DNA of 64,000 nucleotides from Mycobacterium sp. UM_WGJ (GTDB lineage Bacteria; Actinomycetota; Actinomycetes; Mycobacteriales; Mycobacteriaceae), in assembly GCF_000455125.1 (NCBI RefSeq), contig NZ_AUWR01000052.1, positions 1 through 64,000 on the forward strand. The letters are read 5' to 3'. Position 1 is the stretch's first letter, and the number at the start of each line of letters is the position of its first letter. The position numbers and the translations under genes were made by a program. This document shows, piece by piece, positions 9,142 through 12,054 of this stretch. The notes beneath the pieces were generated by a model that was not told the DNA's origin, did no database searches, and worked only from the letters and a program-made list of their open reading frames with translations.

Positions 9142-9230
9142 GGAGGCGTGCCAGAGCGGCCGAATGGGACTCACTGCTAATGAGTTGTCCCCTTTACGGG
9201 GGACCGGAGGTTCAAATCCTCTCGCCTCCG
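9142..9230 (+). tRNA. tRNA-Ser(GCT)
   Basis: A class II tRNA with a long variable arm. The acceptor stem GGAGGCG pairs with CGCCTCC and the discriminator is G. The anticodon stem ACTCA/TGAGT closes the loop CTGCTAA, giving anticodon GCT, which reads AGC/AGU serine codons. The T arm contains GGTTCAAATCC. The 3' CCA is not encoded. Confidence 0.97.
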
Positions 9231-9267
9231 CAACGGCCGGGCTTGCTCGACCGACAACTGAAGACAG

Positions 9268-9340
9268 GCGCCCGTAGCTCAACGGATAGAGCATCTGACT
9301 ACGGATCAGAAGGTTGGGGGTTCGAATCCCTTCGGGCGCA
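9268..9340 (+). tRNA. tRNA-Arg(ACG)
   Basis: A 73-nt class I tRNA. The acceptor stem is GCGCCCG/CGGGCGC with discriminator A. The anticodon stem TCTGA/TCAGA closes the loop CTACGGA, giving anticodon ACG. Its A34 should be converted to inosine by TadA, whose gene lies at 22564-23031 in this window. It follows tRNA-Ser(GCT) by 37 nt and probably shares its transcript. Confidence 0.97.
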
Positions 9341-9362
9341 CATTTTTCATCGGTGACAGACT

Positions 9363-9428: not shown

Positions 9429-10178
9429 CTAGGACCGGTCGCTGCGTCTATCGCTGCGCGGCGCCGAGGTGTCCGGCGCGAACCAGGCCCTCTTGGCCCG
9501 CCAGGACCGCGCCAGGCCATAGGCGAAGGTGCCCACAGACAGGCAGACGCCGATCCAGATGACAGTGCCGGCATAGCCGCCGAACCAGATCGAGATGACC
9601 GCCGCGACACAGGCCACTGCCGCGAAAGTCATTGCCGCCAGGTACAGCATGAGCGTTGTCCTGGCTCGTGGGTCCTTCCGCAGCGACAACATCAGCCGCG
9701 CGACATAGGCGCTCAGGAACAGCACCAGGGCGGCGTTCGCCACCTCGATGACGGTCACCCAGTGATCACCGCCCAGAGCGGCGAACAAATCTGGCTGGAA
9801 ACCTCGGTCGGTGTTGAAGAAGGCCATCAGTACCACCACGACACCCGAGCCCACCGGCACCAGCAGATGCTTGCGCATGATCGGCCACACGTGCGCGGGA
9901 TCGGTGAGCCGCACCAGCATGTGATAGATGTTGCCGACTATGCCGGCGATCAGGCACAGCCATCCGAGTACCTGCTGGACGTTCCACAGTCCGGTGACGC
10001 TGTGCAGCGGCGGGCTCAGTTCGGTGCCCGCCCACGGCGTCAACAAGATCAGCGCGAGTCCCTCCATCGCGATGGCAAAGGTGGCGCCGACCTCCCAGCG
10101 CGACCACCAGGTGTCGCGGCGAACCCACAGGCAGTAGGTGACCATCGCTACGGTGGCCACGATGAACGCAGGTGTCAT
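9429..10178 (-). CDS. Seven-helix membrane protein, third of three tandem paralogs
   Basis: A 249-residue protein with about seven hydrophobic helices, of no family I can name. It shares with its two neighbours LWVRRDTWWSRWE after helix 1, NIYHMLVRL at the end of helix 3, SLRKDPRA before helix 6 and YGLARSWRAKRAWF at the C-terminus. Where the other two have GH at the start of helix 3, this copy has GW, so one of two conserved helix-3 histidines is lost. The ATG overlaps the stop of the middle copy (ATGA). Last gene of the operon; its C-terminal tail is short, basic and Ser/Arg-rich. Function unknown. Confidence 0.85.
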   Translation of the reverse strand: MTPAFIVATVAMVTYCLWVRRDTWWSRWEVGATFAIAMEGLALILLTPWAGTELSPPLHSVTGLWNVQQVLGWLCLIAGIVGNIYHMLVRLTDPAHVWPIMRKHLLVPVGSGVVVVLMAFFNTDRGFQPDLFAALGGDHWVTVIEVANAALVLFLSAYVARLMLSLRKDPRARTTLMLYLAAMTFAAVACVAAVISIWFGGYAGTVIWIGVCLSVGTFAYGLARSWRAKRAWFAPDTSAPRSDRRSDRS

Positions 10179-10915
10179 TGTGCGCCGATCACCTTCTCGT
10201 CGCCGTTGGCGGTGAACCAGGCGCTCTTGGCCTTCCAGGATCGCGCGGACCCGTAGGCGAAAGTGCCTACCGCCAAACAGATACAGAGCCAGATCCCGCC
10301 GCTGGCATTGTCCCCGTCGACCCACGTCGACGCGAGAACGATCAGGCATGCGGCGGTGGCGAACGCCATCGAGACGAGGTAGAGGTCGACGGTGGATTTG
10401 GCGCGCGGATCGTGCCGCAGCGCCAGCATCAGCCGGGTGACATAGCCACTGAGGTAGATCACCAGGGCGCAGCCGACCAATTGGTACACCGTCATCCAGG
10501 CGTCGGTGCGGGGTGCGGCGAACACATCGGGTTGGTAGTCCTGGTCGGAACGCAGGTAGGCCGGCACCATCACGGCAATGCCCAGCCAGATCGGGATCAT
10601 CAGCTGGCGGCGCATGATGAACCGCACTTGAACGGGATCGGCGAGTCGCACCAGCATGTGATAGATGTTCGCCGTCACGGCGATGATCAGGCACAGGTGC
10701 CCGATCATCTGCTGAACGTTCCACACCCCCAGCCCGTTGTGCAGCACCGGGCCGAGCTTGGCCCCGGCCCACGGCGACATCAGTAGCAGCGCACAGGCTT
10801 CCAGTGCTAACGCGAAGGTGGCGGCGTTCTCCCAGCGTGTCCACCAGGTGTCGCGGCGTACCCAGAGGCTATAGGCGACGACTACCAAGGTGCTGACAAT
10901 GATTCCGGACGTCAT
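10175..10915 (-). CDS. Seven-helix membrane protein, second of three tandem paralogs
   Basis: A 246-residue membrane protein of unknown function with about seven hydrophobic helices. Helix 1 ends in YSLWVRRDTWWTRWE, a basic and tryptophan-rich interface motif shared by all three copies. Helix 3 begins GHLCLII and ends NIYHMLVRL, so two histidines lie 13 residues apart on one helix, a spacing that could place both toward a common ligand, though that is speculation. The last helix is followed by YGSARSWKAKSAWF. It starts 9 nt after the stop of the first copy and its own stop overlaps the start of the third, so all three are translated together. Confidence 0.85.
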   Translation of the reverse strand: MTSGIIVSTLVVVAYSLWVRRDTWWTRWENAATFALALEACALLLMSPWAGAKLGPVLHNGLGVWNVQQMIGHLCLIIAVTANIYHMLVRLADPVQVRFIMRRQLMIPIWLGIAVMVPAYLRSDQDYQPDVFAAPRTDAWMTVYQLVGCALVIYLSGYVTRLMLALRHDPRAKSTVDLYLVSMAFATAACLIVLASTWVDGDNASGGIWLCICLAVGTFAYGSARSWKAKSAWFTANGDEKVIGAQ

Positions 10916-10924
10916 CGGGTGCGC

Positions 10925-11680
10925 TCACGACAGGGCTTGCGGGGGATTGGGTTCGGCCGCCGACCGTTCGCTGTTGGTGAACCATGCGGCTTTGGCCTGC
11001 CAGGATCGGGCCGAACCATAGGCGAAGATGACGACTGAAATGCACGCGCACAGCCAAATCAGCGGGCTGACATCGGCGCTGGACCAGGCGTTGCTCAAAA
11101 TCGCCATGATGGCCGCCACCGCGAATGCCGTGGAGGCCGTGTAGAGCTCGACGGTCTCCTTGGCGCGCGGATCGGATCGCAGCATCGAAAGCGCCCGCAT
11201 CGCGTAGCCGGCCAGATAGATCAGCACCAGGGAAAACAGCACCCAATATGCCCGCGCCCAGGCGCCGCCGCCCCCGAGTGAAGAGAAACCATCCGGGCGG
11301 TAGTCGGCGTCGGCGACCAGGAACACCGCCACCATCGCCACCACACCGGCCAGTACGGGCAACTGCACCTGCAGACGGAACAGCGGGCGGAATTGGTCGA
11401 AGTCGGCCAGCCGGGCCAGCACATGGAAGATGTTGGCCGCGATCGCGACGACGAAGCAGATATGACCGCCTAGCTGCTGGATGTTCCAAATCCGGGTGGC
11501 ATGGTGCAGCGCCGGGCCCACGGTGTGGGCTGCCCAGGGCGACATCATCACGAGAGCGACGGTTTCCAGTGCGATCGACACGGTGATGCCGATCTCCCAC
11601 CGTGACCACCAGGTATCACGGCGCACCCACAGGGCGTACAGCGCCACCAGCACGGTGACAGCAATTAACGCCGACGTCAT
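10925..11680 (-). CDS. Seven-helix membrane protein, first of three tandem paralogs
   Basis: A 251-residue membrane protein of unknown function, the first of three related copies. The shared motifs are YALWVRRDTWWSRWE, the helix-3 pair GHICF and NIFHVLARL, LRSDPRAKETVELY, and the C-terminal YGSARSWQAKAAWF. The segment joining helices 4 and 5 is Gly-rich in this copy (LGGGGAW), where the other two differ, so this outer or inner loop is the variable part. It lies 28 nt downstream of the HTH gene in the same direction. I could not match the family to any transporter or enzyme. Confidence 0.85.
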   Translation of the reverse strand: MTSALIAVTVLVALYALWVRRDTWWSRWEIGITVSIALETVALVMMSPWAAHTVGPALHHATRIWNIQQLGGHICFVVAIAANIFHVLARLADFDQFRPLFRLQVQLPVLAGVVAMVAVFLVADADYRPDGFSSLGGGGAWARAYWVLFSLVLIYLAGYAMRALSMLRSDPRAKETVELYTASTAFAVAAIMAILSNAWSSADVSPLIWLCACISVVIFAYGSARSWQAKAAWFTNSERSAAEPNPPQALS

Positions 11681-11708
11681 ACGTCGACGGTACTTGCTCG
11701 GGGCACTC

Positions 11709-12017
11709 CTAGACGGGGGGTTTGTCCAGATCCGCCTTCAGATCACCCAGCCGCAGCGGCCGCGGCGAGGACTCCAGGTATTCGGCGACAGCGTCGTGCT
11801 CGATCAATCCGAACCGTACCTGCAGGTCGACGGGGTTGAGGCCGAAGTACCGGGCAACTCGGATCAGGTTGTCCGCGCTGATCAGTCGGCCCTCATGGGC
11901 CGCCTTGTAATAGGCGGATTTGCGATAGCCGAATGCCTCGTAGACCTCGGTCGCTCCTAGCGGCCTGCCCACGAGGTAAGGCAACACGACGGTTGGGTCT
12001 TTGTGACGATCGTCCAC
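11709..12017 (-). CDS. Small XRE-like helix-turn-helix regulator
   Basis: A 102-residue protein whose middle, GATEVYEAFGYRKSAYYKAAHEGRL, is split here only by length limits: the key run TEVYEAFGYRKSAYY followed by SADNLIRVARYFGL looks like a lambda-repressor-type HTH. The GTG start is chosen because a -10 hexamer (TAAGGT) lies 8 nt before it, implying a leaderless message; upstream in-frame codons would precede the promoter. It is the first gene of the operon with the three seven-helix proteins and probably controls that operon and itself. No signal or ligand domain is visible. Confidence 0.7.
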   Translation of the reverse strand: MDDRHKDPTVVLPYLVGRPLGATEVYEAFGYRKSAYYKAAHEGRLISADNLIRVARYFGLNPVDLQVRFGLIEHDAVAEYLESSPRPLRLGDLKADLDKPPV

Positions 12018-12025
12018 AGCAATAA

Positions 12026-12054
12026 ACCTTAGCTCGTCTTCGTGGACCGCACAA
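12026..12054 (-). promoter_or_regulatory. Promoter of the HTH and membrane-protein operon
   Basis: On the minus strand, TTGTGC, a 17-bp spacer and TAAGGT make a good SigA-type promoter. The -10 ends 8 nt before the GTG of the HTH gene, the usual distance for a leaderless mycobacterial transcript. Confidence 0.55.

Follow-up and report, generated by a model that had tools for sequence, protein, structure and literature searches.

Positions 9429 to 12054 of a 64,000-nucleotide (nt) stretch of Mycobacterium sp. UM_WGJ (contig NZ_AUWR01000052.1; the whole stretch is called the window here) hold a run of four genes: a small helix-turn-helix (HTH) gene, and three tandem genes for membrane proteins with seven transmembrane (TM) helices, here called TM1, TM2 and TM3. 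Judged by its anatomy and kinship, this locus is very probably a chromosomal, multiplied version of a phage-type module that pairs a repressor with a seven-helix membrane protein. The whole reading goes further. It takes the locus for a domesticated phage immunity (lysogeny) cassette with a multiplied membrane part, probably used for phage exclusion, and we give it roughly even chances. The features, with lengths in amino acids (aa) and matches by E-value (E), are:

12026..12054, minus strand: promoter-like site of putative function, with TTGTGC (12054-12049), 17 nt, TAAGGT (12031-12026), and 8 nt to the GTG
11709..12017, minus strand: HTH repressor gene, 102 aa, GTG start, probably leaderless; matches phrog_1746, 43% identical to Adephagia gp43
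10925..11680, minus strand: TM1, seven-helix membrane protein, 251 aa; phrog_950 at E 1.8e-55, AlphaFold2 model made
10175..10915, minus strand: TM2, seven-helix membrane protein, 246 aa; phrog_950 at E 1.4e-53
9429..10178, minus strand: TM3, seven-helix membrane protein, 249 aa, without His73; phrog_950 at E 2.2e-45, TM3/4 clade at 100/99
9268..9341, plus strand: transfer RNA (tRNA) gene tRNA-Arg(acg), convergent neighbour, the operon lying just past its 3' end; found by ARAGORN
9142..9231, plus strand: tRNA-Ser(gct), adjoining tRNA-Arg; found by ARAGORN

All four operon genes are flanked by an M20-peptidase gene on one side and tRNA-Arg(acg) on the other. The HTH gene and TM1 are 28 nt apart. 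A first-pass annotation of this DNA had already noted the 9 nt gap between TM1 and TM2 and the ATGA overlap of TM2 and TM3, and had described three tandem paralogues of 246-251 aa. Both junctions are as described, and all four motifs that it quoted are present in all three proteins. It ended the operon at 12054. This is the first base of the promoter-like -35 box, but the HTH gene itself begins at 12017. A 471-aa open reading frame (ORF) for TM3 (window 9429-10844), which runs through TM2 in another frame, is a mechanical artefact of the ORF lister, and the likely start of TM3 is the ATG at 10178.

The membrane proteins had been assigned to an unknown family. In fact all three match the phage family phrog_950 in PHROG (E 2e-45 to 2e-55), which is annotated as of unknown function. 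Within its own genome TM1 matches TM2 at 50% (E 5e-75) and TM3 at 43% (E 4e-62), far more than chance would give. The HTH protein, with the longer ORF as query, matches phrog_1746, 'transcriptional repressor', at E 6.4e-27. What was overlooked is that the two together correspond, by sequence kinship, to the repressor and membrane protein of mycobacteriophage immunity cassettes. Pfam has no above-cut-off match for the operon proteins.

The phage records bear this out. TM protein matches occur in 322 of 50,697 records, all of them Mycobacterium phages, and HTH matches in 316 (313 Mycobacterium, 3 Gordonia). Among the 40 HTH phage matches listed, most are annotated as immunity or transcriptional repressors. 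We opened 21 annotated phage loci, 16 via the TM match and 5 via the repressor match; several are near-copies, and MsGreen and Snenia are identical in both genes. A TM-sized gene directly adjoins the repressor in every one of the 21: downstream and codirectional in 18, and convergent in CCUG48898T-2, MalagasyRose and prophiT49-1. In some loci the repressor is annotated as hypothetical only (Adephagia 43, MsGreen 38) or is known via a note (MalagasyRose 44). An integrase is annotated within the displayed stretch in 17 of the 21.

The TM profile used on phages, called A2 and containing 14 IMG/VR rows, matches 20 of these 21 neighbours, the exception being the membrane protein of Gordonia phage Kudefre. 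A2 omits L067 TM2, L119 (by hand) and near-identical rows (135 down to 89); 87 were used, plus the window's 3. The repressor profile, which was built from matches in loci it then scored, matches only 18, missing CCUG48898T-2, Harella and Baka. Related TM proteins therefore ride with repressors that this profile does not recognise as kin. Repressor identity and TM identity also do not go together: Spearman correlation is 0.02 for 23 partner pairs including Kudefre (253 non-independent comparisons). Such shuffling of partners is what would be expected of cargo on a lysogenic promoter. In IMG/VR, an HTH-profile match stands beside the TM gene in 6 of 19 loci, 3 in each orientation.

This pairing can also be read differently. 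The main rival holds that the membrane protein is a seven-helix sensor, in which an outside signal alters a conserved cytosolic face that holds or releases the HTH repressor. The tight linkage of HTH and TM genes, in both orientations, would suit a sensor. But unrelated repressors carry related TM proteins and the reverse, HTH genes without TM and TM genes without HTH coexist in the same genomes, and there is one HTH for three TMs. We hold the sensor to be unlikely.

The pair also occurs as a module on host chromosomes. In a sample of 148 genomes of the genus, 93 have a TM match and 94 an HTH match: 92 have both, 1 only TM, 2 only HTH, and 53 neither. In a sample of the order, matches occur in 23 of 249 genomes, from 2 of 68 genera; that of the second genus reaches only E 5e-5 and covers part of the protein. 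No match was found in 72,556 plasmid records. Adjacency was counted in 80 loci, the best 80 among 180 relatives that a single peptide pattern retrieved. The HTH gene heads the gene run in 76 of these, is convergent in 3, and is unseen in 1 (L119, where the stretch starts 207 bases before the match).

The loci fall into three classes. Class A is the tandem set of Mycolicibacter, a label which we take, from kinship, to apply to the window's species as well. Here 16 of 17 loci (L063-L079) have the HTH gene and 3-4 TMs, and the remaining one is cut by the contig end after two. Class B consists of single pairs, in M. shimoidei, kyorinense, celatum, fragae and MFM001. Class C, mostly Mycolicibacterium, is also one pair, and in 49 of its 56 loci (L087-L142) the same class I tRNA synthetase gene, presumably ileS, lies alongside. 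M. acidiphilus carries both HTH-TM and HTH-TM-TM. For the neighbours named hisC, ileS and glyS, Pfam supports only an aminotransferase of class I/II and tRNA synthetases of class I and class II.

In 7 of 8 tandem loci of one set, tRNA-Arg(acg) and tRNA-Ser(gct) adjoin the operon; the eighth sequence ends within 600 nt of it. Twelve genomes without the operon at tRNA-Arg, picked from 40 with a hisC match, all keep the order hisC, tRNA-Ser, tRNA-Arg and have differing genes beyond (window 9342 onward). The content past tRNA-Arg differs among these 12, and the site is therefore variable.

The fixed position of class C feeds a second rival, namely a role of the envelope in host physiology, unrelated to defence. 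The protein would be either a lysogenic-conversion factor adopted by the host, or the product of a host gene captured by phages. Besides the class C pairs, the solo TM genes that stand next to a class II tRNA synthetase gene in 7 genomes with the tandem set fit this, and a knock-out of the very distant MAB_1171c is reported to have made about half the biofilm (PMC8707978). Against it stand the fast change and copy gain described below, and the absence of both genes from 53 of the 148 genomes. We regard this, too, as improbable.

The tandem copies are old. In a tree of 90 proteins, TM1, TM2 and TM3/4 each form one side of a branch, with support of 100/99, 97/79 and 100/99. Since these are separate clades, the triplication predates the sampled Mycolicibacter species, M. 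acidiphilus perhaps excepted. The earlier suggestion of a fixed, operon-like set of diverged copies with its own HTH gene thus stands: the set is kept in the genus, and the adjacent HTH is conserved. A recent duplication in this strain only, without an HTH partner, was considered and rejected given the 3-4 TMs in 16 of 17 Mycolicibacter loci and the three old clades.

Rates were computed from genes of at least 85% length in 17 genomes, with n=17 for HTH, TM1-3 and the APH-like gene, 15 for the M20 peptidase and 11 for hisC. Mean pairwise identity is 0.718 for TM1, 0.730 for TM2 and 0.685 for TM3, compared to 0.813 for the M20 peptidase, 0.890 for the APH-like gene and 0.906 for hisC. The TM genes diverge faster than all three flanking genes compared. 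The HTH protein has 0.968, with nonsynonymous divergence (dN) of 0.021 at a synonymous difference (pS) of 0.44.

Within the membrane proteins, the rate depends on the region. The AlphaFold2 model of TM1 has 7 helices, with a mean predicted local distance difference test (pLDDT) of 92.2 and a predicted TM-score (pTM) of 0.88. Hydropathy of TM1 and TM2 agrees with 7 helices, and the last helix of TM3 falls under the threshold. Charge counts put the N-terminus outside and the C-terminus inside, which suggests an N-out/C-in topology. The pooled ratio of nonsynonymous to synonymous differences (pN/pS) comes to 0.20-0.30 for the predicted cytosolic face and 0.44-0.54 for the outer loops, with 0.39-0.45 in helices 1-3, 0.52-0.72 in helices 4-6, and 0.28-0.44 in helix 7. 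The copy-specific loops proposed in the first-pass annotation are consistent with this insofar as outer loops change more quickly than the cytosolic side, but the rate in helices 4-6 is about equal to that of the loops or above it. The slow cytosolic face and the faster outer loops are also what speaks for a sensor.

So does, at first sight, the fold. The best matches of TM1 in the PDB are 7-TM receptors and microbial rhodopsins. However, these start at E 0.011, with TM-scores (query) of 0.36-0.62 and a root-mean-square deviation of 5.7-9.9 Angstrom among the 50 matches listed, and none reaches E <= 0.001 in Foldseek. A bundle of seven helices can produce such a likeness without kinship. Against viral models, Foldseek gives TM1 5 matches at E <= 0.001, three of them named: membrane proteins of Mycobacterium phage Archie and of the Gordonia phages Rabbitrun and Sephiroth. 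A sequence comparison with solved structures gives no significant kin for the TM proteins (best E 0.061) or for the HTH protein (best E 1.1). The HTH model (pLDDT 85.5, alignment of 13 sequences) has a best Foldseek match at E 0.19; XRE-type proteins such as PrgX, HigA, DdrO and lambda repressor appear at E 0.3-0.9, as does an unrelated enzyme.

The first-pass annotation singled out two histidines on helix 3, 13 residues apart, as possible ligands of heme or a metal in a hetero-oligomeric complex. The residues are where it placed them: TM1 and TM2 have His73 and His86, and TM3 has Trp at position 73. Residue counts follow alignment order, so that M. acidiphilus rows are under Mycolicibacter and class C includes M. 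talmoniae and MFM001. So counted, His73 is present in 49 of 49 rows outside Mycolicibacter (5/5 class B, 30/30 class C, 14/14 phage or prophage), and His86 in 46 of 46 Mycolicibacter and class B rows. This is as much as can be said for the ligand idea. His73 is missing from 18 of 41 Mycolicibacter rows (23 have it). At position 86, Asn replaces His in 29 of the 30 class C rows and in 9 of the 14 phage or prophage rows, 11 of these 14 having no His there. His73 is thus the residue shared widely, with losses among the extra copies, and His86 characterises classes A and B. For these reasons a ligand made of both histidines is unlikely, and the heme or metal complex, rejected on residue conservation, is the least credible of the explanations considered.

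A transporter is another candidate, suggested by NCBIfam NF042915 (MAB_1171c 'putative transporter'). It matches TM1 with 25.5 bits (E 6e-6) and TM2 with 23.1 bits (E 3e-5), a weak profile similarity over most of the protein. The curated cut-off is 100 however, TM3 has no match, no significant transporter fold was found, and MAB_1171c itself is listed as a conserved hypothetical protein. In a phylum sample of 149 genomes, NF042915 proper exceeds its cut-off in 3, all from other genera. The small-molecule transporter was rejected as sub-cut-off, and we think it very unlikely. No match above the curated cut-offs of Pfam and NCBIfam links these proteins to a known transporter or enzyme.

Several published phage systems help to place the operon. 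Closest are the mycobacteriophage cassettes (Adephagia 43/42, Chancellor 47/46), which have the membrane gene directly behind the repressor, in Adephagia with the same families in the same order. Unlike these, the operon is chromosomal, has no Cro, Xis or integrase gene near, and has 3-4 diverged membrane genes instead of one. In the Adephagia report, gene 42 is a 7-TM protein beside repressor 43, both are weakly expressed in the lysogen, and overexpression of 42 is inhibitory (small colonies), with repressor 43 more toxic (+++) (PMC11373665). Authors working on K4 phages suggested that gp46 (7 TM) and the product of another gene, when expressed during lysogeny, could protect by way of defence (PMC5679791).

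The inhibition by Adephagia 42 and the linkage of HTH and TM genes might suggest a pair akin to toxin-antitoxin systems, in which the repressor restrains a membrane toxin. But it is the Adephagia repressor that scores as the more toxic of the two, TM genes occur alone in 7 genomes, and one HTH would have to answer for three TM genes. Such a pair is very improbable.

Lambda cI-rexA-rexB and CarolAnn 45-44-43 similarly have a membrane protein co-expressed with the lysogeny repressor, and serve as a working analogy, without shown homology. CarolAnn 43/44 are reported to defend (PMC6426606). Lambda rexAB and CarolAnn are described as having a RexA-like partner and 4 TM helices; the operon has 7 TM and no such partner, and for the related Sbash 30/31 a promoter of its own is described. 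From the 4-TM proteins with which Butters, Sbash and CarolAnn defend, the operon proteins are set apart by published TM number and partner, not by sequence. The gene order would agree with co-expression with a repressor, as in RexAB-like exclusion.

The first-pass annotation had called the leading gene leaderless and XRE-like. The HTH gene does lead the operon, and a leaderless transcript is plausible because TTGTG(C/T)-N17-TAAGGT is kept ahead of the GTG start in all 18 sequences compared (the window and L063-L079). As to the XRE-like label, Pfam HTH_3 gives 12.8 bits against a gathering score of 23. Codons 2-9 of the HTH gene have less synonymous change than codons 10-90 (share 0.50 vs 0.87), and codons 2-5 (window 12014-12003) are invariant at every site in the 18 sequences. 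This gives a weak hint of a DNA site overlapping the gene start; it is weak because a second changeless run, the equally invariant codons 24-27, lies inside the gene.

Inspection by eye showed no operator motif common to all classes. Palindromes of the form CCCA-N4-TGGG are found upstream of the HTH gene in 50 of 54 class C loci (L088-L142 with HTH), for example upstream of L109 3599, and are possibly a shared class C operator. An inverted repeat TTACGT-N2-ACGTAA, exact or with one mismatch, precedes the HTH gene in 5 of 6 class B loci (L081-L085). Both are raw counts. Class C also has a fast-changing gene divergent from HTH (L109 2879-3469, for example), with about 40% median identity and no Pfam match.

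Put together as a domesticated lysogeny cassette, the locus would have come about as follows. A phage repressor and seven-helix membrane gene were taken over as a chromosomal module, presumably from phage to host, although the tree has no outgroup and phages may have acquired the pair from hosts. In the ancestor of most Mycolicibacter, the module would have stood at tRNA-Arg, and the membrane gene was duplicated at least twice to give HTH-TM1-TM2-TM3 and sometimes TM4. The HTH protein, made from a leaderless promoter, would control how strongly the operon is expressed, probably through autoregulation. The membrane proteins (N-out, C-in) would stay in the inner membrane, where they would exclude other phages or abort their infections, and the diverged copies may confer different specificities. 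Exclusion is suggested by the phage company, the lysogenic expression in Adephagia, the analogy with CarolAnn 43/44, and the fast change and copy gain. By itself we rate this function slightly below an even chance.

A number of things weigh against it. In 49 of 56 loci the class C pair keeps the same position next to a tRNA synthetase gene, as an ordinary gene of the host would. For 13 of the 19 IMG/VR loci the HTH profile, by which alone the neighbours were scored, finds nothing next to the TM gene. Pooled pN/pS reaches 1 in no region, so fast change is demonstrated and positive selection is not. The operon has no RexA-like gene, and PADLOC defence profiles have no meaningful match (best E 8). 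No defence test of any phrog_950 protein was found in the open literature, searched mostly at title level. In another report, the Waterfoul gp41 TM protein, by number beside repressor 42 and a putative counterpart, is non-toxic (PMC9339283).

A variant of the domesticated cassette is a 'lysogen without a prophage'. Here the repressor would recognise operators of incoming phages and so confer superinfection immunity, next to a 7-TM exclusion panel in the inner membrane with copy-specific targets. Recognition of phage operators is proposed because of the 97% identity of the repressor over the genus, with dN 0.021 at pS 0.44. This variant seems rather doubtful to us. If true, a single operon would provide both kinds of protection that a lysogen has, with no virus present.

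By Pfam, the five near protein neighbours, besides the two tRNAs, are an M20 peptidase, an APH-family protein, a class I/II aminotransferase, a polyketide cyclase-like protein and a GXWXG/DUF4334 protein. The span covered (7.1-14.4 kb) has no Cro, Xis or integrase genes among these neighbours. No direct att repeat involving the tRNA genes was found around the operon, which leaves site-specific integration there conjectural.

Relatives of both genes also exist alone. A fourth, more distant TM copy (30% identity to TM1) is found elsewhere in the same genome at C8:250828-251544 (L035). It has no HTH match and is flanked by a class II tRNA synthetase gene and a FUR-family gene; these flanks recur at six further loci in genomes with the tandem set. 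At C14:8415-8726 (L162) the genome has another HTH gene, with 72% identity and no TM match within about 10 kb, and eight other tandem-set genomes likewise have solo HTH loci (L163-L170). L181 (in G123) has an HTH gene and then a short TM remnant match, perhaps a decayed pair.

A published name for the chromosomal module was not found in the open literature, searched mostly at title level. The seven-helix gene recurs beside an immunity repressor in 20 of 21 phage loci by profile, and the same literature yielded no tested function for it. Chromosomal pairs that are fixed in place across species, one of them multiplied, suggest a value to the bacterium itself. The diverged natural copies are a means of learning what the phage protein does.

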